Shown piece after piece: positions 26,542-55,127 of a DNA stretch of 64,000 bases. This stretch comes from Fundidesulfovibrio terrae. Lineage in GTDB: Bacteria > Desulfobacterota > Desulfovibrionia > Desulfovibrionales > Desulfovibrionaceae. Within the stretch, counting starts at the first letter, position 1. The number at the start of each line of letters is the position of its first letter. The notes under the pieces are model-generated. The model searched no databases, had not been told where the DNA came from, and worked only from the letters and a program-made list of their open reading frames with translations. Location: NCBI RefSeq assembly GCF_022808915.1, contig NZ_JAKZFS010000002.1, forward strand, positions 558,001-622,000, written 5' to 3'. The position numbers were made by a program, and so were the translations under genes.

Positions 26542-27035
26542 GACTGCGCAAACCGATCCTTCTTCTGCTGGCGGCGGTGCTCTCGATCGCGGCCTTGTAC
26601 GCGCTTTTCCGGGAACGCCCGGTCCCCCCCCCTGCCTCGCCGGAATTCACCCTCAAGGAGCTGAAGGGCTACGGCGTGGAAAACCGCCACACCGGTCCCC
26701 TCTACGTCATCGAGGGGACCGTGGCCAACGACATGGCCGCTCCCCGGTGCCGGATTCAAATCAAGGTCTCCCTGCTGGACGCAAACGGCCAGGAACTGGC
26801 ACAAGCGCTCACCGAGGCCGGACCGTCCGTCTCGATCTCGGAACTGAAATTTTTGGGCTGGGACGAGCTGACGGCGAAACTGGCTCCCGATGTTTCCGAC
26901 CCCTGCCGGGCTACCCTGGTGGCTCCCGGCGGCGAGACCGCGTTCATGGCCGTATTCCGCAAACCGCCCGCCGGGGCGGCCACCTACTCCGCGGTGGCCA
27001 CCGGCTCACAGGCTCCGGCCCCAAGCGCAAAGTAA
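26538..27035 (+). CDS. DUF3426-like membrane-anchored protein
   Basis: A 165-residue protein with an N-terminal membrane segment (residues about 7-24) and a domain resembling the DUF3426 family, for example FTLKELKGYGVEN, LYVIEGTVANDM and the later RIQIKVSLLDANG. The start ATG overlaps the adaptor stop by four bases (ATGA) and has AAGGAGGGG upstream. The domain should face the periplasm. DUF3426 has no firm function; here it is translationally coupled to the adaptor, so they probably work together. Confidence 0.75.
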   Translation: MRLRKPILLLLAAVLSIAALYALFRERPVPPPASPEFTLKELKGYGVENRHTGPLYVIEGTVANDMAAPRCRIQIKVSLLDANGQELAQALTEAGPSVSISELKFLGWDELTAKLAPDVSDPCRATLVAPGGETAFMAVFRKPPAGAATYSAVATGSQAPAPSAK

Positions 27036-27045
27036 CGAGGTGATC

Positions 27046-27933
27046 ATGTTCGAATCCATGGAACGCGAGGACAAGCTGGCCGCGCGCAAGTTCGCGGACC
27101 TGCGCAAGAAGCCCCACATCCCGGCCCAGCTCGTCGATCTGGTGGAGCAGGTGAGGAGCATCCAGAGCCAGGCCAGGGGGCAGGCGGTGGTGCCGACCGT
27201 GTTCGCGGGGCCCGGGTCCGGGCTTGCCTCCGTGGACCAGGTGATCCAGGGTGCGCCGCTTCTGGCGCGCGAGCGCTTCAGTTACGACGCGGCCCAGGCC
27301 GGGCAGCTTTTCGGTCGCTTCCAGGAACTCCTTTCGGGCATGGGCGGCCCCATGGCCCAGTCGGCCGGAATCGTTCGCGAGGAGGGCGAAACCCTCATGC
27401 GTGCGGCCTTCGACGCTTTCATGGCCAACGACTCCTCCGTGTTCGTGGAGTTCGCCAAGCGTACCCCGAACGCTCCCAGGGCGCTGTCCTTCCTGGCTCA
27501 GTCCAGCCTGACCCCGTCCATCACGGCCCTGGCCGAGAGCCTTTCCGCATCCCTGCCCAAGGACCGGACCTGGGACCAGGGGACCTGCCCCATCTGCGGC
27601 AGCCTGGCCTTTCATTCGGTGCTCTCAGGCAAGGAGGGCGTGCGGGTGAACTGCTGCTCGTTCTGCCGGGCGGCCTACCGCACCGTGCGGCTGCAGTGCC
27701 CCTACTGTGAGGAGCGCGACGCTGCCAAGCTGCCGTACTTCACCGCCGACGAAGAGCCGGGCTACCGGGTGGACGCCTGCCTGAGCTGCCAGGGCTACAT
27801 CAAGACCACCGACTTCCGGGAGTTCGACCGTCCGAGCCTGCCGGCCCTGGACGACCTGGAATCCATGTCCCTGGACATCCTGGCCATGAAGCGGGGCTTC
27901 ACCCGGCCCACGGCCTCCGCCTGGGGGTTCTAG
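27046..27933 (+). CDS. fdhE: Formate dehydrogenase accessory protein FdhE
   Basis: A 295-residue protein needed for making active formate dehydrogenase in the family studied in E. coli. Four CxxC-type zinc or iron motifs lie in the C-terminal half: CPICG (about 184), CCSFC (about 204), CPYC (about 221) and CLSC (about 246). The ATG is ten bases after the DUF3426-like stop, with a GAGG upstream, so it probably shares the transcript with that gene. The matching formate dehydrogenase genes are at 35990-39756. Length and motifs are normal. Confidence 0.92.
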   Translation: MFESMEREDKLAARKFADLRKKPHIPAQLVDLVEQVRSIQSQARGQAVVPTVFAGPGSGLASVDQVIQGAPLLARERFSYDAAQAGQLFGRFQELLSGMGGPMAQSAGIVREEGETLMRAAFDAFMANDSSVFVEFAKRTPNAPRALSFLAQSSLTPSITALAESLSASLPKDRTWDQGTCPICGSLAFHSVLSGKEGVRVNCCSFCRAAYRTVRLQCPYCEERDAAKLPYFTADEEPGYRVDACLSCQGYIKTTDFREFDRPSLPALDDLESMSLDILAMKRGFTRPTASAWGF

Positions 27934-27976: not shown

Positions 27977-28801
27977 ATGGACGCCCCGATCACCGATGCC
28001 GAAGAATCGCAGGCCAGAGAGCAGATCGCCTCCCTGTGCCGGGACATAGGGGGCGACGGGTGTCCGCGCTGCCGGGGCGAGAAGGTCTACCGCCTGGGAT
28101 CGGGGCGCATGCGCTGCAAGGCGTGCGGCTACACCTTCCATGAGTTGACCGGGCGCTTCATGGGCGTGGGCGGGCTTGGCTGCGCCCAGTGGCTCAGGCT
28201 CATCCGGCTGTTCGCGGACGAGATCGCGGTCAAGGAGTGCGCCCAGGCCATGGGCGTGGCCTACAACACCGTCTACAAGGCCTACGACGCCCTGCGCCAG
28301 GCCATCGTGTGCCGGGCCATCGACGCCGGGCAGATCAGGCAGGCCCTCAAGGACCAGGCCGCCGGAGCCAGGCCGCCGGTGTTCGGCATCATGGCGCGCG
28401 GGGACTGGGTATTCGTGGACCTTGTGCCCGACGTGGACGCCGCGGACCTGACGATCTTCAAAATGCACTTCCGCCTGAAGACCTCGCGGGTGGGTTCGGT
28501 GGTGTATACCGGCCCCATCCGGGGGTATCTGGGGCTTGTGAGCTGCGGCGGCCCGCAGTGGCTGACGCCCGCGCTCAAGGCCCGGGATTCGGCGCTTCCC
28601 CTGGACGAGGACGGCGGGTTCTGGCCCTACTTGAAATCCCGCCTGGAGCGGCTCCAGGGCGTGTCGGCCGAGAAGTTCCCCTTGTACCTGAAAGAGCTGG
28701 AATACCGCTGGAACCATCGCGGGCAGGACCTTGCCGGCCTTCTCGCCCGGGTGGGCCTGGGGTTCATGCCGCAAAACGGCGAGGCCTGCTGCCGGTCCTA
28801 G
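27977..28801 (+). CDS. IS1595/ISXO2 transposase-derived protein without DDE residues
   Basis: A 274-residue protein. Residues 29-50 form an IS1595-type zinc ribbon (CPRC...CKAC) and residues about 73-110 a helix-turn-helix. The segments PVFGIMARGDW, VGSVVYTGPIRGY and LKELEYRWNHR match conserved parts of the ISXO2-like DDE domain. But the first Asp region is deleted, VYTDGW has become VYTGPI and the final NTIEGFW has become DEDGGFW, so none of the three acidic catalytic residues is present. No inverted repeats were seen. The gene follows fdhE by 43 bases on the same strand. I infer a domesticated DNA-binding protein, possibly a regulator. It is intact and of plausible length. Confidence 0.78.
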   Translation: MDAPITDAEESQAREQIASLCRDIGGDGCPRCRGEKVYRLGSGRMRCKACGYTFHELTGRFMGVGGLGCAQWLRLIRLFADEIAVKECAQAMGVAYNTVYKAYDALRQAIVCRAIDAGQIRQALKDQAAGARPPVFGIMARGDWVFVDLVPDVDAADLTIFKMHFRLKTSRVGSVVYTGPIRGYLGLVSCGGPQWLTPALKARDSALPLDEDGGFWPYLKSRLERLQGVSAEKFPLYLKELEYRWNHRGQDLAGLLARVGLGFMPQNGEACCRS

Positions 28802-28894: not shown

Positions 28895-29167
28895 CTACCA
28901 GCGGGCGGGGCGGCGTTCGCGGGGGCGGGCTTCGTTCACCTTCATGGTACGGCCGCCGCAGTCCGCGCCGTTCAAGGCCTGAATGGCCTCCTTGGCGCCT
29001 GCCTCTTCCATCTCCACGAAGCCAAAGCCGCGGGGACGGCCGGTTTCACGGTCATTGATGAGCTTCACGGAGTTGACCTGGCCGTAGGCCTCGAACATCT
29101 GGCGCACCTGTTCATCGGTGGCGCTGAAAGGTAGATTCCCGACGTAAATGTTCGTCAACATACTCAC
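28895..29167 (-). CDS. RRM-type RNA-binding protein
   Basis: A 90-residue single-RRM protein. NIYVGNLPF is RNP-2 and RGFGFVEM is RNP-1. The rest of the domain fits the short glycine-poor RNA-binding proteins found in deltaproteobacteria and cyanobacteria, often linked to cold or mRNA handling. The start GTG at 29165-29167 has AGGAG five bases before it; ATG two codons downstream is also possible. It is preceded by a 240-base region and ended by a strong terminator, so it forms its own unit. Confidence 0.9.
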   Translation of the reverse strand: MSMLTNIYVGNLPFSATDEQVRQMFEAYGQVNSVKLINDRETGRPRGFGFVEMEEAGAKEAIQALNGADCGGRTMKVNEARPRERRPARW

Positions 29168-29408: not shown

Positions 29409-30128
29409 TCAAGCCTTTTTGGCCAGCAGGAACTTGAGTCCGTCCTCTTCGCTCTCGTGCAGGGAGGCCAGGGCGGTGAGCCCGGCCGCCTCGAAAACCC
29501 TGCGGAAGTTCTCCGGCTTGCAGGCGATGGCCGAGGCCCCGCCCCTGGCCGTCTGCTCCTTGATGATCCGAGAAAGGCCCTCGATGCCCGCTCCGTTGAT
29601 GGAGGCGCATTCCGACACGGTGATCAGAAGCCCGGCCTGCGGGCGCGCGGCGTCGATGTCCTCGGCCAACTGGTCCAGGTCGGTCGAGAGGTTGCCAGCG
29701 ATGTCCAGCACCGTGACGCCGTCGGCGTCGCGCAGCACGGTGACGGGCTTGGAGTCCGCCCGGCGGCTGATGCGTCCTTCGGCTCGGCGCAGGGCGCTGG
29801 CCAAGGCCTCCTGGGAGATCGGCTTGTCGATGAAGTCGGCGGCCTTGAGGTTGAGCGCGGCCAGGGCCAGCTCCACGTCGCCGTGTCCGGTGATGACGAT
29901 CACTTCGGTCTCGGGGCGGCTGGCCTTGATGCGCGAGAGCACCTCCATGCCGCCCAGGCCGCGCATCTTGATGTCCGTGAGCACGATGGGGAAATCACCC
30001 TGCTCGAAGAGTTCCAGGCCGCGCTCGCCGGAATCGGCGGCCTTGGGCTTGTAGCCCATGGCCTGCAGCAACAGTTCGAACATGGCCAGGGTGGGCCGCT
30101 CGTCATCGATGACCAGGACATCCGTCAT
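29409..30128 (-). CDS. Response regulator with STAS output domain
   Basis: A 239-residue protein. Residues 1-120 are a receiver domain: acidic pair D8/D9, phospho-acceptor D52 in LTDIKMRG, and the Thr/Lys pair at VITGHGD and DKPIS. Residues about 128-239 resemble a STAS domain, as in anti-sigma-factor antagonists (VTVLRDADGVTVLDIAGNL, with ITVSECASINGAGIEGL in the position of the conserved Asp-Ser loop). Most response regulators carry DNA-binding or enzymatic outputs, so this arrangement is uncommon. The kinase gene ends six bases upstream. The STAS part may control a partner switch or bind a small molecule; no anti-sigma partner is nearby. Confidence 0.85.
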   Translation of the reverse strand: MTDVLVIDDERPTLAMFELLLQAMGYKPKAADSGERGLELFEQGDFPIVLTDIKMRGLGGMEVLSRIKASRPETEVIVITGHGDVELALAALNLKAADFIDKPISQEALASALRRAEGRISRRADSKPVTVLRDADGVTVLDIAGNLSTDLDQLAEDIDAARPQAGLLITVSECASINGAGIEGLSRIIKEQTARGGASAIACKPENFRRVFEAAGLTALASLHESEEDGLKFLLAKKA

Positions 30129-30134
30129 AATGCC

Positions 30135-32096
30135 TCACGAGTGCGCGGGCGGAAACAAAAGCTTGAAGGTGGTGCCCTCGCCGGGCTCGCTGCCCACCTG
30201 GATGTCTCCCCCGTAATCCTTGACGATGCCGTAGGAGATGGCCAGGCCCAAGCCCATTCCCTCGCCCGCCCGCTTGGTGGTGAAAAAAGGCTCGAATATC
30301 TTGCGCAGGTCCTCGGGTGCGATGCCGCCGCCGGTGTCGGAAACGCTCACGGCCACCGTCCCGTCTTCCGCCCACGACCGGATGGTGATCTCGCCGCCCC
30401 CGCGCGGTCCGGATTGTATGGCATCACGGGCATTGACCACAAGGTTGAAAAAGACCTGCTCCAGGCGGTTGGAGTGGGCCAGCACCGGGGACAGCCCCTC
30501 GCCCAGCTCCAGTTCCACCTCGATGTTCTGCAGGGCCAGCTGCTTGCCTATGATGGCGAACACCCCCCGGATGGGCACGTTGATGTCCACCTCGTCGGGA
30601 ATGAGGTCCGACTTGCGGCCGAACTCGCGCAGGTGGGTGATGATGCCCGCCGCGCGTTCCACCTGGGCGCAGATCTCGTCGGCCACCTGCCGGAAGCGGT
30701 CCCTGGGGATGTCGATGCCGTTGTCGGCGGCCAGCTTCAGGAAGTCGCTGCCGAGCATGATGGCGTTGAGGGGCTGGTTGAGTTCGTGGGCCATGCCGGC
30801 GCTCATTTCGCCCAGGGTCTTCATCTTGCTGGCCTGGATGAGCTGGGCGTCCTTCTCCACCAGCCCGGTGACGTCGGCGGCGGAGAAGATGACCACCTCC
30901 TTGCCGCGGTAGTGGGTCTTGGTGGCGTGGATGTTGACGAAGATGGAGCGACCGCCGCGCACGGTGTGCTTGACGTTGGTGTAGAGCACGTGGGCCTCGG
31001 AGTTCACGTCGCTCAGGAAGCGCTGCACGCCGGCCTGGCTGTCGGCGGGCTCGATGTCGGAGATGGTCATGACCGAGAACTCCTCCTTGGAGTAGCCGTA
31101 GAGCTCCTGGGCGCGGGGGTTGGCGTCCAGGAAGCGCATGGAGGAGGCGTTCAGCACCAGGAAGGGGTCGGGGTTGGCGTCGAAGAGCGGGCGGTAGCGC
31201 TCCTCGGATTCGCGCAGGCGGTGACGGTAGAGCCTGATGGACCAGACCATGTTGGCGAAGGCGTCGGCCAGCTGCACCACCTCGTCGCCGGGGCGCTCGC
31301 GATAGAACTTGCAGGGATCGCAGTTGCCGGGGCGGCGCTTTTCGCCGCGCGCCAGTTCGTCCAGGTGCCAGCAGGGCAGGTCGTTGTCGTTGTAGGCCGG
31401 GCATTCTCCCGGATTCCATGGCGGGCCGCCCAGGTCCAGGGGCTGGTCGAGCCTGCCCCGGCTGATGGACTCGGCCGCGCGGGTGAGCCGGGTGAGCGGC
31501 GTGGCCACGTAGCCCGACAGGATGAGCACGATCAAAAAGATGATGACCACCACCAGCGAGATGAATCCCAGGAATGTCAGGCGCAGCTTGCCGACAAGGT
31601 TGTCGATGTGGCTCTGGCGCAGGCCCACGTGCACCCGGCCCAGGGTATATATGCCCTCCTGGACGGGTACGGAAATGTCCACGGCGTCGCTGCCCTCGAA
31701 ACTGACCGGACGGTAGAGGATCTCCTGGCTGTCCGCCGGTGTGTTCCAGTCGAGCAGCTCCTGGGGGAACGGGCGGATGAAGGTGTGGGCCAGGAGCTTG
31801 TTTTCGTTGTCGGTGAGGAAGATGTAGGCCACGAGCGCTTTTCGCTCGCCCAACTGGGCCGTATCGAAAAGAAGCGACACGAGGCCGGCCCGGTCCTTGT
31901 CCAGGATGAAGCCGCCGCCGCGCTCGGCGATGGACTGGGCGATGGCCATGCCGCGCATCTCCAGTTCGCGCGACAGGCTGCTCACCAGGATGCCCCGGGC
32001 CAGGAGCGCGATGGCCCCGCTTATGAGCAACACCACGCCCACCGTGGACAGGAACATCTTGTTGCGCAGGCTCAGCTTGCGGAAACGGTCCAGCAT
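30135..32096 (-). CDS. Sensor histidine kinase with Cys-rich HAMP insert and PAS domain
   Basis: A 653-residue membrane kinase. TM1 is about residues 14-34, a periplasmic domain follows, and TM2 is about 172-196. The HAMP region begins at ATPLTRLTRAAE and resumes at GDEVVQLADAF; between these lies an insert with Cys232, Cys242, Cys259 and Cys262 (CPAY...CW and CDPC). A PAS domain covers about 300-410. The phosphohistidine is H437 in MAHELNQPLN, and N, G1 and G2 boxes (NLVVNARDA, DTGGGI, GMGLGLAI) complete the kinase. The cysteine block resembles metal- or redox-binding clusters seen in deltaproteobacterial signalling proteins. It lies between the binding-protein gene and the REC-STAS gene. 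Confidence 0.9.
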   Translation of the reverse strand: MLDRFRKLSLRNKMFLSTVGVVLLISGAIALLARGILVSSLSRELEMRGMAIAQSIAERGGGFILDKDRAGLVSLLFDTAQLGERKALVAYIFLTDNENKLLAHTFIRPFPQELLDWNTPADSQEILYRPVSFEGSDAVDISVPVQEGIYTLGRVHVGLRQSHIDNLVGKLRLTFLGFISLVVVIIFLIVLILSGYVATPLTRLTRAAESISRGRLDQPLDLGGPPWNPGECPAYNDNDLPCWHLDELARGEKRRPGNCDPCKFYRERPGDEVVQLADAFANMVWSIRLYRHRLRESEERYRPLFDANPDPFLVLNASSMRFLDANPRAQELYGYSKEEFSVMTISDIEPADSQAGVQRFLSDVNSEAHVLYTNVKHTVRGGRSIFVNIHATKTHYRGKEVVIFSAADVTGLVEKDAQLIQASKMKTLGEMSAGMAHELNQPLNAIMLGSDFLKLAADNGIDIPRDRFRQVADEICAQVERAAGIITHLREFGRKSDLIPDEVDINVPIRGVFAIIGKQLALQNIEVELELGEGLSPVLAHSNRLEQVFFNLVVNARDAIQSGPRGGGEITIRSWAEDGTVAVSVSDTGGGIAPEDLRKIFEPFFTTKRAGEGMGLGLAISYGIVKDYGGDIQVGSEPGEGTTFKLLFPPAHS

Positions 32097-32144
32097 GGCG
32101 GCTTCAGTCCGGCCTTCGCGGCGGGGTGGCCCGGTTGGGGGAGG

Positions 32145-33374
32145 TCATTGGCAGTCGCGTGGGGCGAAGGGCCTCGACCAGTCCGTGACCAGCACGAAGC
32201 GTCCCTTCTCCAGGCGGGTGAAATAGACCCGTTCCAGGCCTTGGTGGTCGCCGGGGGCGTAGGCCAGGGTGTTGCCCAGGCCCAGGGAGTAATCCCTGAT
32301 GGTTTCCACGGCGTCGATGAAGCGCTCCCGGTCAAGGTCCGGCCCGGCGCGCCTGAGTCCCTCCACCAACACCTTGGCGTTGACGAAACCCTCCAGGCCC
32401 ACCGCCGTGACCGGGTGGCCTGGGAAGTACTTGCGCGAGAGCTCCTCGTATTCGCTCACGCCCCACAGGAGAGCCCGGGATTCGGGCATGTCCGGGGGCG
32501 GCATCACCTGGGAGATGATCACCCGGGCCTTCTCGTCCGGGCCGAGGGCCTTGGCGATCTCTTCCGCGCCCACGAAGGACACGGCGTAAAAGATCAGGTC
32601 GGGCTTCTTCTCCATGGCCATGCGGATGAACTTGGCAGAGGGCGCGGACGTGCCGATGATGACCACGGCCTGGGCGTCGCTGTCCAGGAGCTTGGCCAGG
32701 CCTTCCTCCACTTCCAGGGTGCCGCGCGCGTAGGACCCACGGGCCACCGGGGCGAGGTTGTAGCCGCGCAGGGCCAGTTCCGTGCCCTTGAGGCCGTCGA
32801 AGCCGTAGGCGTCGAACTGGTAGAACACCCCGATGCTTCCGATTCCCAGGTCCTCCACCAGGTGCTTCACCGCCGCCGAGGTCTCCTGGTAGTAGGAGGG
32901 GCGCACGTTTATCACGTAGCGCTGGAAGGGCTCACGCAGGTCGTAGGCCCCGGTGAAGGCCCCCACCAGGGGAATCCTGGCATCCACCAGCATGGGCAGA
33001 ATCTTGGTGGTGGTGGGCGTGCCCACGTAGCAGGACAGGGCGAACACCTCATCCTCCACGATGAGGCGCTGGGTGTTGTCCACGCAGCGGGGCGGGTCGT
33101 AACCGTCGTCCCGGGCAACAAGCTCCACCTTGCGTCCGTGGACGCCGCCCTGGGCGTTGACGTGGCTCAGGTAGGCCAGGGCTCCGCGCAGGGTCTCCTG
33201 GCCCAGGTAGGCGGCGTGCCCCGTGAGCGGCAGGCTGGCCCCGATGCGCACCTCGGTCTGCGACACGCCCATACGCCCGGTCTGCTGGGGTGGCGGGGCG
33301 GGGGAGCCGCATGCCGCAAGGGCGGCCAGCAGGACGGAGCAGACAATCCTGGCGGCCCAGGCGGTCTGGATCAT
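32145..33374 (-). CDS. Periplasmic solute-binding lipoprotein (branched-chain amino acid type)
   Basis: A 409-residue type I periplasmic binding protein of the LivJ-like family. A lipobox, LAACG, follows the N-terminal hydrophobic segment, so it is a lipoprotein. The first lobe has [16 protein letters not shown] and the hinge region [12 protein letters not shown] in the usual places. It is not part of a permease operon but lies between the peroxiredoxin-like gene and the histidine kinase gene. ATG overlaps the peroxiredoxin stop by four bases. I infer that it senses a ligand for the kinase instead of feeding a transporter. Confidence 0.85.
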
Positions 33375-33958
33375 TTCAGTGCGTCCAGGGCCTTGGCCAG
33401 CTGGCCAAGGTCGGGGCGCGTGTTGATGTCGTGGACGTCGATGTAGCGGATGATCCCCTTCTTATCGATCACGAAGAGCGCCCGTTCGGAGACGCCATCG
33501 GGCCGCAGGATGCCGAGCTTGGAAGCCAGGCCGCCGTGGGGCCAGAAGTCCGAGGCCACCGGGAACCACACCCCGCCCATCTCCACGACCCAGGCGTTCA
33601 GGGAGGGCAGGTTGTCGCAGGAGACGCCGATGAGTTGCGCGTCCCGGCCATCGAAGACGTCGCGGGCCAGATTGTAGCCCGGCCACTGTCCGGAGCACAC
33701 CGGGGTCCAGGCCGCCGGGACGAAGGAGAGCACCACATTCTTTTTGCCCAGGTAGTCCGACAGGCGCACGCGCTTGCCGTCGATGCCCGGCAGGTCGAAG
33801 TCCGGAGCCTTGTCGCCCACGGCCACCTTGAGCGTGCTGTCCGTGGGCTTGAGGGCTCCGGGCTGCCAGATGAGCTGCTGGGGGATGGACCCCTGGGCCA
33901 GAGCGAAGACCGGCAGCAAAAGGGCCAGCGCAAGAGCGGAGAGCAGTTTCGCGGCCAT
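33371..33958 (-). CDS. Exported peroxiredoxin-like (AhpC/TSA) protein
   Basis: A 195-residue thioredoxin-fold protein with a signal peptide (residues 1-21). [10 protein letters not shown] places the peroxidatic cysteine at C88, and a further cysteine occurs in LIGVSCDN. It should act in the periplasm, reducing peroxides or reading thiol state. The next gene starts in the overlapping ATGA. The stop of the thioredoxin-like gene is one base upstream, so the two redox proteins are made together. The AAGGGG sequence before the start is a good ribosome-binding site. Confidence 0.88.
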
Positions 33959-33959
33959 G

Positions 33960-34556
33960 TCATTTCCCCTTGGGCAGACCGGTTTTTTCCACCACTCCGT
34001 CCAGGAACGCCTCGGCCGAGGTCATGCAGCCGAGCTGGCCGTCCGCGATGACGAAGCCGTTCCCTTGGCGCTTCAGGACGTAAAAGTAGGGCGTGCCCAC
34101 CTGCCCCAGCGCCTTGTAGGCGTTGAAATCCTGGTCCGACAGCAGGGTGAAGGGCGTGGAGAACTTCTCTCGGAACACGTTCACCTCGAAGGGCGAGTTG
34201 CCCGCCCCCATGCCCACCAGTTTGAGATTGTCCGAAAGCCCCCGGGACTTGATGAGGGCGTGGAGCTTGTTCAGCTCCGGTGCTTCGCGCTGGCAGAAGG
34301 GGCAATACATGGAATAGACCACGAAAATGACCGCCTGCGCCTTGACGTCGGCCAGGCGCACCGGCTTGCCACCCGATCCGGCCCCGAGGTCCTGGGCTTC
34401 CTTGTCCGAAATCGGGCTCGGGAAAGTCAGGTCCGGGAAGGCCTGGCCCGCGGGAAGAGGCTTCATGAAGGGTGATTCGGACGCCTGGGCGGCCAGGGCC
34501 TGGGAATGCGCGAGAACGGACAGCGCGAGGACCAGCGAAAGGGCGAGGGCTTTCAT
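33960..34556 (-). CDS. Exported thioredoxin-like (TlpA-type) protein
   Basis: A 198-residue periplasmic thioredoxin-fold protein with a signal peptide (cleavage near ALAA-QAS). The active site is MYCPFCQR (C85, C88). [10 protein letters not shown] and VGTPYFYVL include the cis-proline region (GTPYF). The start ATG has AAGGCAGG upstream. It is the first gene of a five-gene unit that also encodes a peroxiredoxin-like protein, a binding lipoprotein, a kinase and a REC-STAS protein. Confidence 0.88.
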
Positions 34557-34738: not shown

Positions 34739-34801
34739 TACAAGTAGATATGATATTTGGTAATGAGATATTATTGCATGTTGTAACGCGGGGTGTGGAA
34801 T

Positions 34802-35749
34802 ATGAATGACGAATTTTGCACGGGTAATGTGCGGGTAGAGCCTCTGGCCGTGGTTGCAGAGGCTATTTCGATGGCGCGCATTGAGTGGAAAACATATCTT
34901 GCGTGGGCCGCAGTCCCCATCGCCATCTGGATAGGCTCGCTGTTCGTTCCACTGGACGCGCGGGCATGGGGTAAGACGCACTGGACTGAGCCCGCTGGGG
35001 CTTGGGCCATCCTGATCCTCCAGGCGTTGCTGCTGACGGTGTTCAACATCCGGGTCTACCGGCACGTCATCCTGGGGGCGAGCCCGGATGCCAGCATAGT
35101 CCGGCAGATCTTCACGGGACGGACCTGGAACTACATCGGCAACGGATTCGTCATGGGCATGAAATGGGGCTTCATCTCGCTTTTGATGGTGATCATTCCA
35201 GCTCTGATTGGCTTCCTGCTTGAATCGAAGCTCGCCGGGGTGCTGGACTTGAAAGGGAAAGAGAATCTGCTGTTCAGCCTTGTCGGTCTGCTCTGTTCAT
35301 ACGCGGCGTTCATGACGTTCGCGGAACAGTGGGTCCTTATATTCCCCGAGGTGTCCGTCGACGGTCCGGCGTCGTTTTCGAGGTTGAGCAGGTATGCCGG
35401 TTACGCCCGCTGGAACGTCATCAAGACATTGGCCCTGGTGTGGTGCGTTCCCTACGTGTGCGGGACGGCCATTCAGCTGGCGGTTGTCCTGGGGTGGAAC
35501 GTCTCCTGGACGCGCCATCCCGCCGCCGTGGTGCTTGCCCAGTCGCTCGACATCGCTGCCGGCGTGCTTTCCACCTTCGTGGGCGCGGTGCTCTACAAGA
35601 AGCTGAGCGCCGACTGGCCCGAGCGTGATAGTGCCGAAGCGCTGAAACAGGTGAGGACGCCACAATTTCGCTCGGCAACCGGGCCCGAGCGGACCGCCGA
35701 AGAGATTAAGCAGACGCCTCCGTTTAGCCCGGAGGACGGGAACGCGTAA
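34802..35749 (+). CDS. Integral membrane protein of unknown function
   Basis: A 315-residue protein with about six hydrophobic segments (for example LAWAAVPIAIWIGSLFV, WGFISLLMVIIPALIGFLL, VLAQSLDIAAGVLSTFVGAVLY). The N-terminal 30 residues and C-terminal 60 residues look cytoplasmic. I do not recognise the family. ATG at 34802 is used; a GTG three codons upstream is also possible. Its upstream region is visibly AT-richer than the surroundings, and it diverges from the redox operon, so co-regulation with that operon is possible. Confidence 0.65.
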   Translation: MNDEFCTGNVRVEPLAVVAEAISMARIEWKTYLAWAAVPIAIWIGSLFVPLDARAWGKTHWTEPAGAWAILILQALLLTVFNIRVYRHVILGASPDASIVRQIFTGRTWNYIGNGFVMGMKWGFISLLMVIIPALIGFLLESKLAGVLDLKGKENLLFSLVGLLCSYAAFMTFAEQWVLIFPEVSVDGPASFSRLSRYAGYARWNVIKTLALVWCVPYVCGTAIQLAVVLGWNVSWTRHPAAVVLAQSLDIAAGVLSTFVGAVLYKKLSADWPERDSAEALKQVRTPQFRSATGPERTAEEIKQTPPFSPEDGNA

Positions 35750-35989: not shown

Positions 35990-36715
35990 CTAACTCCGCG
36001 CTTGGCGCAACGGAGCGAGCAGCTTGTCCAGGGCGGCGAAGCGGGTGAGCGTGTCCGTTCCGCCCGCGTCCGACATGAGGGTCTTGTGGTAGAGGCTGGG
36101 GGCCTGTTCCGTCAGGAAGACGACCCGCACCTGCTCATAGTCCACGAGAACCGCCTTGGGATTGGTTTTCTTGAGTTCCTCGAAGCGCTTTTTGGCCATG
36201 GCCAGCATCTCGTCGCGCTCCCCGAAGTTCATGGCTCCGGTGGGGCAGGTCTTGACGCAGGCGGGCAGAAGTCCGGCATGCACGCGGTCGTTGCACATGT
36301 CGCACTTGCTCATGACCTTGGTCTTGGGATCCTGCCTGGGGATGTCGTAGGGGCAAGCGCCCTTGATGACGTCGAAGGGCAGCCCCTTGGTCTTCTCGGT
36401 GAAGACCACCGCGCCGGTCTCCTTGTCCTGGGTGATGGCGTCCTTGATGACCCCGTCGCCCGCGTCCTTGCACGGCGGGTCCACGCAGTGGCGGCACTGG
36501 TCGGGCAGGAAGAGCAGCTTGAGGTCGCCGCCTTCCCCCACTTCCTTCATGCGCACCACCTTGAGGGTCACGAAGGACATGTCCGGCGGGTTCTGGTGGG
36601 AACCCGTGTTCTTGGTCTGCTCCGCGGGGAGCTGTTTCCACTGCTTGCACGCGATCTGGCAGCCGCGGCAGGCGGTGCACCTGGCGAGGTCCACGAAGAA
36701 GGTCTTGCCTGGCAT
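35990..36715 (-). CDS. fdhB: Formate dehydrogenase Fe-S (beta) subunit
   Basis: A 241-residue ferredoxin-like subunit with four 4Fe-4S-type clusters: CTACRGCQIACK near residue 12, CRHCVDPPC near 74, CPYD / CDMCNDR near 120-140, and ACVKTCPTG near 153. It takes electrons from the molybdenum/tungsten subunit and passes them to periplasmic c-type cytochromes. There is no signal peptide; the protein is exported with the Tat signal of FdhA. It follows fdhA by 14 bases, with GGAGGTAAAC as ribosome-binding site. Confidence 0.95.
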   Translation of the reverse strand: MPGKTFFVDLARCTACRGCQIACKQWKQLPAEQTKNTGSHQNPPDMSFVTLKVVRMKEVGEGGDLKLLFLPDQCRHCVDPPCKDAGDGVIKDAITQDKETGAVVFTEKTKGLPFDVIKGACPYDIPRQDPKTKVMSKCDMCNDRVHAGLLPACVKTCPTGAMNFGERDEMLAMAKKRFEELKKTNPKAVLVDYEQVRVVFLTEQAPSLYHKTLMSDAGGTDTLTRFAALDKLLAPLRQARS

Positions 36716-36729
36716 GTTCGTTTACCTCC

Positions 36730-39700
36730 CTAGGCCTTTTTCACGTTGACCATGAAGGCCTTGGTTTCAGGGATGCCCGTGTTGGGGTCGCCCACGGACG
36801 GGGTGAGCAGGTTGGCGGAGTCGCCGCCGTCCTTGGGGAACACCCATCCGTAGTGCCAGGGGATGCCCACCATGTGCACGGTCTGACCCATGACCTGCAT
36901 GGGCTTCAGGCGCTCGGTGACGATGGCGATGGCCCACAGGGAGCCGCGCGCGCTCTCCACGGTGCACTTGTCGCCGCCGTTTATGCCGCGCAGCTTGGCC
37001 AGTTCGGGGCTCATCTCCACGAACATCTGAGGCTCGCATTCGAGCAGCCAGGGGGTCCAGCGGGTCATGACGCCGGTCTGCCAGTGTTCGGTGACCCGGT
37101 AGGTGGAGCACACGAACGGGAAGCGCGGGTCGCACACGGCGCGGGTTTCGGTCGGTCCCTGGAACACCAGGGCCGTGGGGTTGTGCAGCACCTTGGAGAA
37201 CGGATGCTCGGGGATCGGGCACTCCAGGGGCTCGTAGTACTCGGGCAGGGGGCCGTCGTTTCGGCCGGGGCCGAAGATCTGGCCGAAGCCCTCGGTGGTC
37301 ATGATGAAGGGGTTCTTGCCCTTGTCGTCGGCCATCGGCGGCCACGGGCCGTCGGGCACGTCGCCCACCCACTTGCCGTCGGTCCACTCGATGACCGGCT
37401 TGGTGGGCTGGTAGGGCTTGCCCTGCGGGTCCACGGAGGCGCGGTTGTAGATGATGCGGCGGTTGACCGGCCAGCACCAGGTCCAGCCGGGGAAGAGTCC
37501 GATCTTCTCCTGCATGGGGGTCTGGGTCTTGTCGCGGCGGGCGGCCATGTTCTTGTCGGTGTAGGAACCGCAGTAGATCCACGTTCCCGAGCAGGTGGAG
37601 CCGTCGTCCTGCAGCAGGCCGAAGGCGGGCACCGGGTCGCCGGCCTTGTAGGTCTTGTCGCCGATGGTCTTTTCCTTGAGGAAGTACCCGTTGATGAGCT
37701 TGGCCACCTTGTGCGGGTCGAAGGCGTGGTTGGTGGCGAAGTCCCACTTCAGCTTCTTGATGGGCTCGGGGAAGACGCCCTTCTTGTCCTTCTCGTAGAG
37801 CCCCTTGATCTTCTCGAAGAGCTCATAGATCAGGTCGCCGTCGGGCTTGGTGCCGCCAAGCGGCGCGGGGCCGGGGTAGCGCCACTGCATCCAGCGGCCC
37901 GAGTTGGAGATGGAGCCTTCCTTCTCGATGGACACGCAGCAGGGCAGGAAGAAGACCTCGGTCTTGATCTTCTTGGGGTCCATGCCCGGGCCCTTCCAGA
38001 AGGAGGCGGTCTCGGTGTCGAAGATGTTCACCGTGACCATCCAGTCCAGCTTGGCCATGGCCTGGCGGACCTTGTTGCAGTTGGCCGTGGAGGCCGCCGG
38101 GTTCTGGCCCCAGGCGAAGAAGCCCTTGAAGGCGCCCTTGTACATGTCGTCGAACAGAGTCAGCCAGGAGTAGTCCCTGCCGTCGTCGAGCTTGGGCAGC
38201 CACTTGTAGGCGGTCTCCAGGTCGACGTCGGGGTACATGGACTTGAGGAAGCTGGCCATGTACTTGGGCCGGTTGCCCCACCAGTTGGCGCTCTTGGGGT
38301 CCTTGGTGACCGGGGTGTTCTTCTCGTTGAAGATCTTGAGGTCGGTCATGGACGCCGTGGGAGCGGGGATGTAGCCGGGCAGGATGTGGAACAGGAGGCC
38401 CTGGTCCGTGGAGCCCTGCACGTTGGCCTCGCCGCGAAGGGCGTTGATGCCGCCGCCGGCCACGCCGATGTTGCCCAGCAGCAGCTGCACGATGGACATG
38501 GCGCGGATGTTCTGCACGCCCACGGTGTGCTGGGTCTGGCCCATGGCGTAGAGCACTGTGCCGGTCTTGTCAGGCGCGCCGGTGGCGCCGTACATCTTGT
38601 AGACTTCCTCGAGCTTGGCCACGGGGCAGCCCGTGATCTTGGAAACCGCGTCCAGGGTGTAGCGCTCGTAGTGCTTCTTCATGAGCTGGTACACGCAGCG
38701 CGGGTCCTGGAGGGTGGGGTCTTTCTTCACCAGGCCGTTCTCGTCCTTGGCGAAGGACCAGGCGGACTTGTCGTAGGCTTTCTTCTCGGCGCTGAAGCCG
38801 GAGAACATGCCGTCCTTGAAGTCGTACTTCTCGCCCACGATGAAGGCGGCGTTGGTGTAGTTGGCCACGTAGTCCTTGAAGGTCATGTCGTTGGCCAGGA
38901 TGTAGTTGATGAAGCCGCCGAAGAAGCCGATGTCCGAGCCCGAACGGATGGGGGCGTAGAGGTCTGCCTTGTTGGCGGTCTTGGTGAAGCGGGGGTCGAC
39001 GCAGATGAGCTTGCCGCCCGCGTCCTTGGCCCGCATGATCCACTTGAAGGAAATGGGGTGGTTTTCGGCAGGGTTGGAGCCGATTACTAAAACTGCATCA
39101 CTGTTCTTGATGTCGATCCAGTGATTGGTCATCGCGCCGCGTCCGAACGACTCTGCCAGAGCCGCTACAGTTGCGCTGTGTCAGATACGGGCCTGATGTT
39201 CGATGTATGTGAGGCCCAAGGCTCGGAGCATGGACTGGTAGATCCAGCACTCCTCGTTGTCCATGGCGGCCGATCCCACGGAGGCGATGGCTTCCAGGCG
39301 GTTGACTTCCTGGCCTTTGGCGTTCTTGGTCTGGAAGGCGGCGTCGCGCACCTTCTTGACCCGCTGGGCGATCTGCTCAAGAGCCCATTCGTAGGTCTTG
39401 ACCTGCCACTTGTCGGAGTTGGGGGCGCGGTAGAGCACCTTGGTGATGCGCTTGTCGTTCTCGCCCAGCTGCCAGATGGACGCGCCCTTGGGGCACAAGG
39501 AGCCCTCGTTGATGGGATGGTCCGGATCGCCTTCCACGTTCACGGCGCGGCCCTTGCCTTCCTGCGCAGTGGAGACGATGAGGCCGCAGCCCACGGAGCA
39601 ATAGCAGCACACCGAGGTGGTCTGCTTGCAGCCCTTGAGCTTGGCCAGTTCGGCGGCTGCGTGGACCGTGGTCAGGTCCAGGCCCAGGCCCCCGAAGGCC

Positions 39701-39756
39701 GTGACCACCGCCGTGGCAGCGGTCAGTTTGAGAAAGTCTCGCCTTTCCAATGACAT
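36730..39756 (-). CDS. fdhA: Selenocysteine-containing formate dehydrogenase catalytic (alpha) subunit
   Basis: A 1008-residue enzyme once the in-frame TGA at 39181-39183 is read as selenocysteine (residue 192, in ARI-Sec-HSATV). This is the metal-binding position of periplasmic formate dehydrogenases, which oxidise formate to CO2 with a Mo- or W-bis-pterin guanine dinucleotide cofactor. Residues 1-34 are a Tat signal (ERRDFLKL). A 4Fe-4S site, CCYCSVGC, follows near residue 51. MGQTQHTVGV and later segments fit the pterin domains. The frame is open on both sides of the TGA. The start ATG has AGGAGG upstream. A SECIS-like hairpin lies just after the TGA. Confidence 0.95.
39146..39183 (-). promoter_or_regulatory. 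SECIS-like hairpin for selenocysteine insertion
   Basis: On the mRNA the TGA (39181-39183) is followed 14 bases later by a stem AGCGGCTCT/AGAGTCGTT (nine pairs, with G-U pairs) around a three-base GGC loop (39146-39166). Bacterial SECIS hairpins that bind SelB sit at this distance. The fold was done by eye. Confidence 0.65.
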
Positions 39757-46492: not shown

Positions 46493-48238
46493 CTACCGCA
46501 CAGGCCTGAAATCGTAGCCGGAGTGGTAAAGACCGCCCCCTTCGGCGCGCACCACGGCGCCGGTCCCCGTGCCCATGCCGCCGATCACGGCCTCGTCGTC
46601 CGACACGGGGACCAGGGGGAAGACGGCCTTGGCCGTGGGGGCTCCCTCGACTCCCGTGGATACGGTGATGGCCGCCGTCAGCAGGCCGTCCTTCAGGGCC
46701 AGTTCGATGCCCTTGTAGCAGATGCCCTCGCCGGGGGCGTCCGTGGAGTACGCGCCGAGCCTGCGAAGCCATGCCTCCGGCACCGTCCGGTGGGGAATCT
46801 TCTCGAAGGGGAGAGGCATGGGATGGCCGAAGAGGACCAGGGCCTCGCGCCCGTCCACCGTCCGGTATTCGAAGGACAGTTCCGGCATGGCCCGCGTGGC
46901 CAGCCCGAACAGGGCCTCCTGGCGGGGAAGGAACTTCCCGTTGCCCAAAGGCAGAAGGTCCACGGTGCGGTCCCACAGCCACATCTTGAGGTCGCCGCCG
47001 TCCAGCCATACGGAGCCCAGCTGCCCCGCCAGCGTGGCGTAGTTTCCGGCGTATCCGGCCAGTTCCTCCCGGGGTACGTCCGCCGCCTTGGGCGCCTTGG
47101 GCCTGGGCTTGAACGGCGCGCCCTGTCCGGTCTTCGCCTCCATGGCCATGTCCAGGGCCTTGACGGCCAGGGTGGACGCGAAGCGGGAGGCTTCCTCGGA
47201 GTTTGCCAAGATGGCCACCCCGAGCTTCAGGTCGGGCTCAACGGCCAGGAAAGCCTGGAAAGGGATGGCCGTGCCGCCGTGCCAGGCCACGGGGCGTCCG
47301 TCGGCAAGGGTGAGGCCCGAGAGCATCCAACCCAGGCCCTGGCGGTGGCCGAAGTCCAGCGGCAGGCCCTCGAACGGGGCGTGCAGGGCTTCGCGCAGGC
47401 CATCCGGGGGGATCACCCCCGCGCCGTCCGCGAGCACGGCGGATATGAATCGGGAAAGGTCCTCCACGGTGCAGTAGAGCGAGCCCGTGGGCTGGTCGCG
47501 CAGGGTGGGGCTCGGGGCGGGCTTGCCCCCCCGGTAGCCCGTGGAGAAGCGCCGGGCCAGGGGCGCGGTCAGCACGTAGCTGGAGTCGCGCATGCCAAGC
47601 GGCTCGAGGAGTCCCAGGCGCATGGCCTCGGCGAAATCGCGGCCTTCGATGTTCTCGATCATGCGCCCGAGCAGGCTGAAGGCCACGTTGGAGTAGCGCC
47701 ACTCGGTAGCCGGGGGGCTGGCCATGGACTCTCGCGCAAGCGTCGGGATGTACGCGGCGAGGGTCATGGGGTGCTCGGCCCACATGCCGGCCACCACGTC
47801 CGTGGGCAGCCCGGAATGGTGGCTCATGATCATGCGCGGCGTGATGGGGGGCGTGTCCGCGAACCTGTTGCGGATGGAGAATTCAGGCACGTGCGCGCGC
47901 ACGTCGTCGTCCAGCCCCAGGCGCCCGGCCTGGACCAGTTGCAGGACATGCATCGACGTGACCACCTTGGAGATGGACCCGGCGCGGTAGACCGTGTCCG
48001 GACCGGCCGGGACCTTCGCGGCCTCGTCGGCGTAGCCGAATCCCTGCGACCAGACCACCCGCTGGCCGTCCACCACGGCGATGGACAGGCCCTTGACCGA
48101 GTTGAGCGACATTTCCTTGCGGATGTATGTGGGAAGCTGGGTCTTCATGGCGGAGTATGCGTCGGGAGAGGGCGTGGCCGCCGGGCAGAGGGACGCCGTC
48201 AGGAAAACGACGGCCAGGGCGAGGATGACGGTTCGCAT
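46493..48238 (-). CDS. Beta-lactamase-family serine hydrolase (class C-like)
   Basis: A 581-residue secreted serine hydrolase. The signal peptide ends near ALCPA/ATPS. The class C beta-lactamase motifs are SISK (S88 to K91), YSN (Y182-N184) and HGG in AWHGGTA. Residues about 400-580 form an extra C-terminal domain with repeated GYAGNYATL-like strands. It may be a D-alanyl-peptidase or an esterase. It is a single gene. The ATG at 48236-48238 is preceded by GGAGG from dispersed repeat H (about nine bases). Confidence 0.88.
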   Translation of the reverse strand: MRTVILALAVVFLTASLCPAATPSPDAYSAMKTQLPTYIRKEMSLNSVKGLSIAVVDGQRVVWSQGFGYADEAAKVPAGPDTVYRAGSISKVVTSMHVLQLVQAGRLGLDDDVRAHVPEFSIRNRFADTPPITPRMIMSHHSGLPTDVVAGMWAEHPMTLAAYIPTLARESMASPPATEWRYSNVAFSLLGRMIENIEGRDFAEAMRLGLLEPLGMRDSSYVLTAPLARRFSTGYRGGKPAPSPTLRDQPTGSLYCTVEDLSRFISAVLADGAGVIPPDGLREALHAPFEGLPLDFGHRQGLGWMLSGLTLADGRPVAWHGGTAIPFQAFLAVEPDLKLGVAILANSEEASRFASTLAVKALDMAMEAKTGQGAPFKPRPKAPKAADVPREELAGYAGNYATLAGQLGSVWLDGGDLKMWLWDRTVDLLPLGNGKFLPRQEALFGLATRAMPELSFEYRTVDGREALVLFGHPMPLPFEKIPHRTVPEAWLRRLGAYSTDAPGEGICYKGIELALKDGLLTAAITVSTGVEGAPTAKAVFPLVPVSDDEAVIGGMGTGTGAVVRAEGGGLYHSGYDFRPVR

Positions 48239-52739: not shown

Positions 52740-53864
52740 CTATATCTTCGTGGTTTTGGGTTTGCCGAAGAGCCCGGTGGGCTTCCAGGTGAGGATGCCC
52801 AGCAGGATCGTGAAGCTGATCAGGTCGCGCAGTTCGGAGCTGAACACCGCCGCCACGATGACCTCCAGGAAGGCCAGCAGGAAGCCGCCGACGAAGGCCC
52901 CCCGGATGTCGCCGATGCCGCCCACCACCGCGGCCACGAAGGCTTTCCAGCCCACCAGCGCGCCCATGAAGGGGTCCAGCACCGGGAAGTTCATGGCGTA
53001 GAGGAGGCCCGCCAGCCCGGCCATGGAGGAGCCCAGGAAGAAGGTGAACACGATGACCGCGTCCAGCGGGATGCCCATGAGCGGCACCGCGAACTTGTCG
53101 TAGGACACGGCCCGCATGGCCATGCCCAGCTTGGTGCGGGTGACGATCCACTGCAGCAGGGAAAACACCAGGAAGCTCGCTAGGATGGCCGAGAGCTTGG
53201 TGATGGAAATCTTGGCTTCGCCCACGTCAAAGATGACGCGCGGCAGAAGCGTAGGGAAGGACAGCCTGTTGGCGCCCAGGAGCGAGAGGTTGCCGTACTC
53301 AAGGATGATGCCCATCATGAGCGCGGTGATGACCACGTAGAGGCGGTTGGCACCCTTGAGGCGCAGCGGCTTGTAGGCCACGCGCTCGATGAACACGCCC
53401 ACCACCGAGGTCAGCACCATGGTCAGGGGCAGGGTGGCCGCGAACACCATGAGCTTGTCGGCTCCGGTATCGAGCTTGATGTCCTGTCCCCAGACGTAGA
53501 CGATGGCGGTGAAGGCGATGAAGATGCCCGCCAGGGTGGCCGGGTAGCTGTAACTCTTCTGGCCCGCCGCCTGCGGCTTCTTCTTGATGGCGAAGGAGAG
53601 CGCGGCGGTCAGGATCAGCGCGAAGAACCCCGCGAAGACCAGCTTCACCGAGATGGGCGAGGCCGGGGGGATCAGCGCATGCTGGCCCATGAAGAATGTG
53701 GCGGCGAAGAAGGCGATGTAGGCCCCCACCATGAAGATGTCGCCGTGGGCGAAGTTGATGAGCAGCAGCACGCCGTAGACCAGGCAGTAGCCCAGGGCGA
53801 TGAGGGAATAGTAGCTTCCCAGCTGCAAGGCGTTGAGCGCCTGTTGGATGACGGTGTCGAGCAT
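52740..53864 (-). CDS. livH: Branched-chain amino acid ABC transporter permease LivH
   Basis: A 374-residue permease with the typical start (GSYYSLIALGYCLVYG, then NFAHGDIFMVGAY), GSSMAGLAGLL and VGGIGDIRGAFVGG. Compared with E. coli LivH (about 308) it is longer by roughly 60 residues, mostly a hydrophilic-hydrophobic insert around residues 65-120 (FAIKKKPQAAGQKSY, then VWGQDIKLDTGADKL). Insert function is unknown. It follows livK after a 99-base gap with a hairpin. Confidence 0.93.
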   Translation of the reverse strand: MLDTVIQQALNALQLGSYYSLIALGYCLVYGVLLLINFAHGDIFMVGAYIAFFAATFFMGQHALIPPASPISVKLVFAGFFALILTAALSFAIKKKPQAAGQKSYSYPATLAGIFIAFTAIVYVWGQDIKLDTGADKLMVFAATLPLTMVLTSVVGVFIERVAYKPLRLKGANRLYVVITALMMGIILEYGNLSLLGANRLSFPTLLPRVIFDVGEAKISITKLSAILASFLVFSLLQWIVTRTKLGMAMRAVSYDKFAVPLMGIPLDAVIVFTFFLGSSMAGLAGLLYAMNFPVLDPFMGALVGWKAFVAAVVGGIGDIRGAFVGGFLLAFLEVIVAAVFSSELRDLISFTILLGILTWKPTGLFGKPKTTKI

Positions 53865-53919
53865 GACCTGTCCCGAGGCTTGTTAATTGAAGACCACAAG
53901 AAGTCCGGAACGAAGAGAC

Positions 53920-53948
53920 GGGCGCGGAAGGTGTGCCCTTCCGCGCCC
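53920..53948 (-). promoter_or_regulatory. Intercistronic hairpin between livK and livH
   Basis: GGGCGCGGAAGG (53920-53931) pairs with CCTTCCGCGCCC (53937-53948), twelve base pairs with a five-base loop (TGTGC), and no T-tract follows on the minus strand. Such hairpins often let the binding-protein mRNA outlast the permease part. This use is inferred. Confidence 0.6.
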
Positions 53949-53963
53949 TTGGAACCTTGTCGC

Positions 53964-55127
53964 CTACGGGCAGACGGATTCGTGGAAAGCGAACTCGCCC
54001 TTGTCGGTGATCTTGACGATCACGGCGCACTTGACGGGGTCGCCGGTCTTGCCGTCGTAGCTCATCTTGCCGGTGATGCCGTCGAAGTCGCGCATGGTGG
54101 CCATGGCGTCGCGCAGGGCGGTGCGGTCCTTGGCCAGGTCGCCGGAGATGGCGCCCATCTTCTTGATGGCGGCCAGAACCATGCCGGTGGCGTCCCAGGT
54201 AAGCGCCCCAACGTCGTCGGGGATCTGCTTGAACTTGGCGTTGAAGGCGTCGATGAACTCCTTGGTGGCACCCTTGGCGCCGGCGGCGGCGTAGTGGGTC
54301 ACGAAGTACTGGCCTTTGCAGTCGTCGCCGCACAGGGCCATGAGCTCGGCGGAGCCCCAGGAGTCGGAGCCCAGGATGGGGCCCTTGTAACCCAGCTCAC
54401 GAGCCTGCTTCACGATCAGCGGGACCTCGTTGTAGTACTGGGGGGTGAACAGGACGTCGGGCTTGGCCTTGAGGATCTTGGTCAGCTGAGCGGAGAAGTC
54501 CACGTCCTTGGTGGTGAAGGTCTCGAAGGCCACCACGGAGCCGGCGCCGTGCAGCTTCTCGAAGTCCTTCTTGAAGAACTCGGCCAGGCCCTTGGGGTAG
54601 TCGGAGGCCACGTCGTACAGCACAGCGGCGGTCTTGGCCTTGAGCTGCTCGGTGGCGAACTTGGCGGCCACGGGTCCCTGGAAGTCGTCCAGGAAGCAGG
54701 CGCGGAACACGTAGGGGCGGTCCTGAGTGGTCTTGGGGTTGGTGGACCAGGCGGACATCATGACGGTCTTGTTGTTGTTGGCGATCTCGCCGGCGGGGAT
54801 GGCGCGGCCGGAGCCCTGGGGGCCGACCATGGCCAGCACCTTCTCGCCCTCGATGAGCTTGAGCGCCGCGTTGACCGCGGATTCAGGCTTGGCCTCGTTG
54901 TCGACGTACACGAAGTCCAGCATGTACTTTTTGCCGCCCACTTCCAGGCCGCCAGCGCCGTTGATCTTTTCCTTCAGCATCTCGGCGGCGTCCTTGCTCA
55001 TCTCGCCGACCTTGGGGATGTCGCCGGTCAGCGGGATGTTGAAGCCGATTTTGATGGTGTCGGCGCTAAAGGCGGCCGCCGGAAAGGCGAAGGCCGCGAC
55101 AAGCAAGGCAACGAGGAGTTTTTTCAT
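53964..55127 (-). CDS. livK: Branched-chain amino acid ABC transporter substrate-binding protein
   Basis: A 387-residue type I periplasmic binding protein. Residues 1-21 are a signal peptide (AAAFSA cleavage region). IKIGFNIPLTGDIPKVGEMS opens the first lobe (pieces: IKIGFNIPLTGD, KVGEMS), and WSTNPKTTQDRPYVFR plus WDATGMVLAAIKKM belong to the ligand cleft. It catches leucine, isoleucine, valine or related amino acids for the LivHMGF permease downstream. The start ATG has GGAG upstream. Three palindromes lie further upstream. Confidence 0.94.
   Translation of the reverse strand: MKKLLVALLVAAFAFPAAAFSADTIKIGFNIPLTGDIPKVGEMSKDAAEMLKEKINGAGGLEVGGKKYMLDFVYVDNEAKPESAVNAALKLIEGEKVLAMVGPQGSGRAIPAGEIANNNKTVMMSAWSTNPKTTQDRPYVFRACFLDDFQGPVAAKFATEQLKAKTAAVLYDVASDYPKGLAEFFKKDFEKLHGAGSVVAFETFTTKDVDFSAQLTKILKAKPDVLFTPQYYNEVPLIVKQARELGYKGPILGSDSWGSAELMALCGDDCKGQYFVTHYAAAGAKGATKEFIDAFNAKFKQIPDDVGALTWDATGMVLAAIKKMGAISGDLAKDRTALRDAMATMRDFDGITGKMSYDGKTGDPVKCAVIVKITDKGEFAFHESVCP

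Follow-up and report, generated by a model that had tools for sequence, protein, structure and literature searches.

A predicted sensory and thiol-maintenance operon associated with redox-switch formate dehydrogenase in sulfate-reducing bacteria

In a 64,000-nucleotide stretch of the Fundidesulfovibrio terrae genome (contig NZ_JAKZFS010000002.1, positions 558,001 to 622,000; hereafter the window), five closely spaced genes encode two exported thioredoxin-fold proteins, a LivJ-type binding lipoprotein, a sensor kinase and a receiver joined to a STAS domain. We propose that this array is an operon for sensing and thiol maintenance that accompanies the periplasmic formate dehydrogenase FdhAB of the redox-switch subclass, a prediction from sequence to which we assign a probability of roughly 0.6. 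The last three genes (the trio) form one conserved unit, and both the trio and the genes of the two redox proteins co-occur with FdhAB, which is often the trio's neighbor. This adjacency and co-occurrence had been overlooked in an earlier reading of the same DNA (the original prediction) and are added here.

Layout and conservation of the array

The five genes are listed in the order in which they are read:

TRX, 34556-33960, minus strand: 198 amino acids; exported thioredoxin-like protein with CPFC; AhpC-TSA/Redoxin by Pfam
PRX, 33958-33371, minus strand: 195 amino acids; exported peroxiredoxin with PAAWTPVC; AhpC-TSA/Redoxin by Pfam
SBP, 33374-32145, minus strand: 409 amino acids; LivJ-type binding lipoprotein; Peripla_BP_6 by Pfam
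HK, 32096-30135, minus strand: 653 amino acids; kinase with sCache_3_2, HAMP (first half only), PAS, HisKA and HATPase_c by Pfam
REC-STAS, 30128-29409, minus strand: 239 amino acids; response regulator with Response_reg and STAS by Pfam

As first described, the five open reading frames lie on one strand with gaps of 1, -4, 48 and 6 bases between TRX, PRX, SBP, HK and REC-STAS. A promoter scan of the minus strand gave one weak promoter-like site upstream of TRX (34799-34770, 9/12 matches), and a terminator scan gave three terminator-like sites, below the 4.8 of shuffled sequences and all within the kinase gene.

Conservation was followed in 120 Desulfovibrionales genomes drawn evenly across the order. 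With REC-STAS as the query, all 120 genomes give some match, mostly to the receiver part only, and 68, the window genome included, give matches over most of the length at 36-51% identity; the SBP query matches 72 genomes at E 1e-60. The regions of 58 relatives were then picked by hand, and not at random, from the listed REC-STAS matches (the 68 near-full-length genomes and two partial ones). In 53 of these 58 loci, SBP, HK and REC-STAS are codirectional and keep this order, which argues that the array is more than a chance arrangement. A scan with the lipoprotein alignment, using one genome per species, added at least 80 loci (L097-L176) with titles from Desulfovibrionales, Desulfobacterales, Syntrophobacteraceae, Desulfarculales and unplaced Deltaproteobacteria. 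Among the 80 listed, SBP and HK occur together in 74 and the whole trio in 58, many of the contigs being short. These loci partly share contigs with the hand-picked ones, L039-L096 (G080:C9 and L122, for example), and the two sets are therefore not independent. From the 58 loci and the scan together, it is evident that the trio is a unit widespread in these sulfate-reducer lineages.

This does not hold for the array as a whole. The full order TRX-PRX-SBP-HK-REC-STAS was found once more among the loci, on a Desulfobacterales contig (L130), which weakens the idea that the five genes are one ancestral unit. The original prediction had presented the five-gene order as new and had named separation of the genes in most relatives as a finding that would count against it; the two redox genes are indeed found apart, but the trio is fixed. 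What stands of the operon-like array is a LivJ-type lipoprotein whose partner is a kinase and not a permease, together with the redox proteins joined to them.

Association with redox-switch formate dehydrogenase

The genes for FdhB and FdhA lie upstream of the array on the same strand, and a putative maturation gene lies on its other side:

FdhA, 36730-39756, minus strand: alpha subunit, outside the five-gene array; selenocysteine TGA at 39181-39183; switch cysteine pair
FdhB, 35990-36715, minus strand: iron-sulfur subunit; Fer4_11; member of cluster c7, beside FdhA in relatives
FdhE-like maturation protein, 26890-27933, plus strand: FdhE_C above and FdhE_central just below cut-off; true start probably further in

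In D. vulgaris FdhAB, according to excerpts of three papers, a disulfide between C845 and C872 keeps the enzyme in an O2-stable resting state, its reduction yields the fully active form, and Met405 is conserved in the redox-switch subclass (PMC13397495, PMC11134731, PMC11323313). C638, C667 and M197 of the window FdhA align with C845, C872 and M405, and its TGA at 39181-39183 aligns with Sec192 (numbering as in the excerpt of PMC11134731). Judged by these residues, the window FdhA would belong to the redox-switch subclass. Among 51 FdhA sequences from the loci, the window included, the first of the three positions is Cys in 44 and the second in 43, and 49 have the Met.

The association is seen both in gene distance and in gene content. 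FdhA lies within 10 kb of SBP on the same contig in at least 48 of the 72 SBP genomes and within 5 kb in at least 37, both being lower bounds from the best FdhA matches listed; by our arithmetic (2-3 copies per 3-4.5 Mb), chance would give such closeness in about 1-2%. SBP is present in 68 of the 74 genomes with this FdhA subtype, taken as the best 96 FdhA matches (about 1140 bits or more), and four SBP genomes are without the subtype.

The switch region could be compared in the best FdhA of 92 of the 105 genomes with an FdhA match, 13 having been left out. At presence cut-offs of our own choosing, the 72 genomes with the switch cysteine pair hold SBP in 66, PRX in 58, the rhodanese-domain family c4 (described below) in 38, and either PRX or c4 in 66; for the 20 genomes without the pair, the counts are 6, 1, 1 and 1. 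Permutation within genera, five of which are mixed, gives p values of 0.012 for SBP, 0.00015 for PRX, 0.0007 for c4 and 0.0001 for PRX or c4. Catalase, used as a control, shows no such contrast (44/72 vs 10/20, within-genus p 0.86); the first control gene (46496-48238) is absent from all other genomes of the 120 and was uninformative. The fetched loci agree with the genome counts, with TRX, PRX or c4 in 32 of 42 loci with a switch-bearing FdhA and in one of seven without (Fisher 0.003; the count leaves out the window FdhA and one sequence gapped at the site).

Several observations weigh against tying the array to FdhAB. A plus-strand open reading frame (34793-35749) separates FdhB from TRX, and FdhAB and the five genes are thus not one operon. 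No listed FdhA falls within 10 kb of SBP in 24 of the 72 SBP genomes, and in six of these 24 it is on the SBP contig at a distance of 160-570 kb. A distance of 10 kb or less separates PRX from SBP in just 11/72 genomes and from FdhA in just 8/60, while 21 of the 53 trio loci have neither TRX just downstream nor PRX beside them (an overcount that misses L043). Six genomes with a switch-bearing FdhA are without SBP. The genomes counted as lacking the switch are mostly without this FdhA orthologue at all, so that what correlates is the class of enzyme and not strictly the two cysteines. Moreover, genus strata are an incomplete phylogenetic correction, and neighborhood and co-occurrence are no proof of regulation.

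Two further genes near the array were observed. An IS1595-type zinc-ribbon/DDE-like protein at 27977-28801 on the plus strand, downstream of the array, belongs to a family (c10) found in 22 of 59 loci, the window included; it is repeatedly found next to formate dehydrogenase genes in different genera and looks like a domesticated transposase. The open reading frame at 34793-35749 gave no Pfam or NCBIfam match.

The exported redox proteins

The thioredoxin-fold pair with its CPFC and TPVC sites is as the original prediction had it. TRX has the features of TlpA/ResA-like proteins, a CxxC within an AhpC-TSA/Redoxin domain and a signal peptide (signal peptides and the SBP lipobox, LAAC22, were judged by eye), and the CxxC is kept in 47 of 47 aligned members. 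In a FastTree tree, two thioredoxin types split with a support of 0.999; the window TRX groups in one clade with the PRX-linked members, its position within that clade being weak (support 0.73). A search of the window genome for TRX paralogues found none of note. PRX carries the peroxiredoxin motif PxxxTxxC in its AhpC-TSA domain, and C88 is present in 8/8 aligned sequences. No conserved resolving cysteine of a 2-Cys peroxiredoxin was found in the alignment, the sole other PRX cysteine, C114, being Val in 6/8. PRX is present in 60 of the 120 genomes.

The place of the redox genes relative to the trio is not fixed. At least 26 of the 53 trio loci (a count that misses at least L043) have a thioredoxin-like gene behind REC-STAS in the same orientation, usually accompanied by c4, a MauE-like membrane protein and a small putative lipoprotein. 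In six of the 53 loci, PRX is convergent and just downstream of the trio, with TRX next to it. Family c4 was not found in the window genome. Its members (L061:1641-3377 and 31 further ones of similar length) stand between the thioredoxin and the MauE-like protein, and the catalytic Cys of the rhodanese domain is seemingly replaced by Gly (VYGRTISRRYD).

In the TRX gene of L130 (L130:8551-9183), an in-frame TGA takes the place of the codon for the first CPFC cysteine, the sole such case among loci L039-L176. From the position of the TGA, it is best read as selenocysteine, making this TRX a likely selenoprotein; a folding check of L130 for a selenocysteine insertion sequence (SECIS) did no better than shuffles (z -0.02).

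These data bear on what the two proteins would do. They might act directly on the C845-C872 disulfide, with TRX reducing and activating the enzyme, PRX relaying peroxide to close the switch, and the trio adjusting supply. The matching of all three switch residues in the window FdhA, the tracking of switch-bearing FdhA by PRX, and the TGA at the active-site Cys of the L130 TRX would suit such a role, as would two genomes (G066, G012) in which true FdhA orthologues have lost one or both cysteines and PRX is missing. On the other side, PRX is so seldom close to FdhA, 14 of the 72 switch genomes have no PRX (eight of the 14 having c4), and G007 and G054 retain the cysteine pair without it. Any periplasmic thiol is a conceivable target, and we regard direct action as a tentative possibility, well short of even odds.

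A general operon for periplasmic oxidative or thiol stress is still less probable. Here the trio would sense the stress, TRX and PRX would detoxify, and FdhAB would be a chance or lifestyle-linked neighbor. The peroxiredoxin and thioredoxin folds and the cysteine-bearing kinase could be read in this way, but catalase, also an oxidative-stress gene, lacks the link that PRX has, a control that weakens this explanation, and the closeness of FdhA and SBP in so many genomes does not favor it.

REC-STAS and its output

The receiver joined to STAS is borne out by Pfam, in which the window STAS is at the threshold (22.1 bits vs a cut-off of 22.6; 23 bits in a second search), by STAS matches in 31 of 34 relatives at E 0.001, and by an AlphaFold2 model (pLDDT 93.5) whose strands and helices after the receiver follow a STAS-like order. 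Fold searches of REC-STAS against the PDB were filled by receivers and hardly probed the STAS half. The receiver residues D52, T80 and K102 are present in 61/61 sequences.

The original prediction had also read a partner-switch output into the array, and this part is doubtful. In classical partner switching, REC-STAS would bind an RsbW-like anti-sigma kinase and free a sigma factor, with the STAS Ser being phosphorylated. There is a STAS domain, and there are RsbW-like genes in the genome. However, the phospho-Ser position is Gly in 61/61, in a loop that is mostly N-G-A-G, which makes a Ser-kinase cycle impossible at that site; other STAS proteins of the window genome keep the Ser in the three usable control sequences of five (L001 D-S-S-G, L002 N-S-S-G, L007 D-S-T-G). 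None of the 27 HATPase_c_2 matches in the genome falls in the cluster, and the three best RsbW-like matches adjoin other STAS matches at 28-72 bases. The classical mechanism is thereby weakened, and we consider it quite improbable, although a contact with RsbW that needs no Ser is conceivable.

A different partner is suggested by position. REC-STAS is directly followed by a member of a family of about 1100 residues in eight of the 80 listed scan loci; in six of these eight, the family gene and fdhE-fdhB-fdhA converge, and L125 and L131 have a family member ahead of fdhA. A BTAD activator domain was found in the L173 member, the one tested, and the placement of this BTAD-type protein makes it a candidate partner of REC-STAS. 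The family was seen in Desulfobacterales at L173:13763-17056 and at nine further loci, placed either behind REC-STAS or ahead of fdhA.

Downstream of REC-STAS in the window, an RRM RNA-binding protein is encoded at 28895-29167 on the minus strand (NCBIfam Rbp_regulator above cut-off). Near the trio in L080, L084, L085, L086 and L087, a second, divergent set was observed, comprising an SBP with 32-35% identity, a receiver protein, and an sCache-HAMP-PAS protein that is truncated at the region end.

The lipoprotein and the kinase

The solved structure closest to SBP, both by sequence and by fold, is 4kv7 (TM 0.82/0.91), and AmiC (1pea/1qnl) is also among the structure matches. As originally noted, this lipoprotein comes without permease genes: no permease or ATPase gene, such as a LivJ-type importer would have with its binding protein, is found among the open reading frames of the cluster. 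A separate LivJ-type binding protein and permease are encoded in the window at 52740-55127. Because SBP adjoins HK in 53/58 loci and has no permease with it, it is, on sequence grounds, likely to be the ligand receptor of the kinase. That SBP is instead an orphan subunit feeding the Liv permease of the window, with the kinase operon adjacent by chance, would fit its LivJ-type fold and the genes at 52740-55127, but the pairing of SBP with HK in those 53 loci and in 74 of 80 others (partly on the same contigs) makes this transport role hardly credible. A small carboxylate is a conjectural ligand that would fit an sCache kinase beside FdhAB. Cys97 of SBP, within DPPRC, is invariant in 54/54 aligned lipoproteins and may serve to sense thiols or to contact the ligand.

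HK has the HisKA His437 in 54/54 aligned kinases, and together with its HATPase_c domain and D52, T80 and K102 of the receiver it qualifies the pair as a two-component system. The kinase has one further feature:

Four-Cys insert in the HK HAMP connector, 31290-31430 (approximate limits), minus strand: C232, C242, C259 and C262

The four HAMP-region cysteines were part of the original prediction, and each is Cys in 53 of 54 aligned kinases, the window included. The exception, L042, is missing the entire insert and keeps a plain HAMP connector. The insert lies between the two HAMP helices and has the form CPAY...PCWH.D...C..C.FY. It is not unique to these kinases, since, of 18 insert sequences, 12 give a match to the NCBIfam two-CW domain NF045718 with E values no higher than 1 (5.2e-6 for the best); the insert of the window itself gave nothing at E 1 against NCBIfam, and a search of open-licence papers for the two-CW domain gave nothing. 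It is plausible that the insert binds metal or senses thiols, and it could possibly report cytoplasmic redox or metal.

Proposed mechanism

A tentative sequence of events can be outlined for an operon attached to FdhAB. SBP would bind a small periplasmic solute and present it to the sCache domain of HK, which may also be set from the cytoplasmic side by the four-Cys HAMP insert through metal or thiol. The kinase would then phosphorylate D52 of the receiver, and the phosphorylated receiver would expose or hide the STAS domain, which would act by protein binding without a Ser-phosphate cycle. The target of STAS may be a regulator whose gene lies elsewhere; in some Desulfobacterales, the gene that comes next, for a BTAD-type activator, could supply it. 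The contact between STAS and this regulator would determine how much FdhAB and helper protein is made, while the exported TRX and PRX would hold periplasmic thiols and peroxides in check around the enzyme. A further-reaching version, in which TRX and PRX write and erase the FdhAB disulfide and the trio with its Cys-HAMP kinase is a dedicated sensor matching FdhAB supply to substrate and redox state, would amount to a two-layer redox control of sulfate reducers dedicated to one enzyme; we hold this to be rather unlikely, on a par with direct action on the disulfide.

Comparison with known systems

TorT-TorS and LuxP-LuxQ are sensor kinases assisted by a binding protein, and AmiC is a regulator with the LivJ fold. 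The present system resembles all three in that a binding protein without its own transporter would inform a regulator. It differs from them in the sCache_3_2 sensor, the lipoprotein, the REC-STAS output, the thiol proteins in the operon and the link to FdhAB. As for the two-CW domain, the insert here is placed inside the HAMP connector.

The output also has relatives. RsfS-RsfR of Mycobacterium smegmatis is likewise a two-component pair with a non-DNA-binding output that responds to respiration through a STAS/sigma circuit, but RsfR is a REC-PP2C protein acting on a separate STAS protein (PMC10950880), whereas the STAS of the present system is part of the receiver protein itself and has no phospho-Ser. 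A receiver joined to a partner-switch domain is also seen in TciR of Vogesella indigofera; this domain is RsbW-like and not a STAS as in the window (PMC12826045).

The window FdhA shares with D. vulgaris FdhAB both switch cysteines, the conserved Met and the codon for Sec; the excerpts of the papers on that enzyme name no cellular thiol partner and no signalling system for its switch (PMC13397495, PMC11134731, PMC11323313), and thioredoxin is not mentioned in the part of PMC13397495 that was searched. A term search of a paper mapping D. vulgaris response regulators (PMC3333781) finds neither STAS nor formate dehydrogenase. A search of open-licence papers, by title and the start of the abstract, returned no description of this system. 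We conclude that it is a real, conserved variant of the two-component system that is tied to redox-switch FdhAB.

Implications

The STAS half of the system is of interest for signalling, as a REC-STAS protein with an invariant Gly would be an unusual output, in which phospho-Asp controls a STAS interaction without a Ser-phosphate cycle. For the enzyme, FdhAB of the D. vulgaris type is a much-used CO2-reducing biocatalyst, and its protection from oxygen depends on a disulfide at its surface. The genes found here to accompany the switch-bearing enzyme in different genera provide named candidates for the partner of this disulfide and for the regulation of FdhAB.

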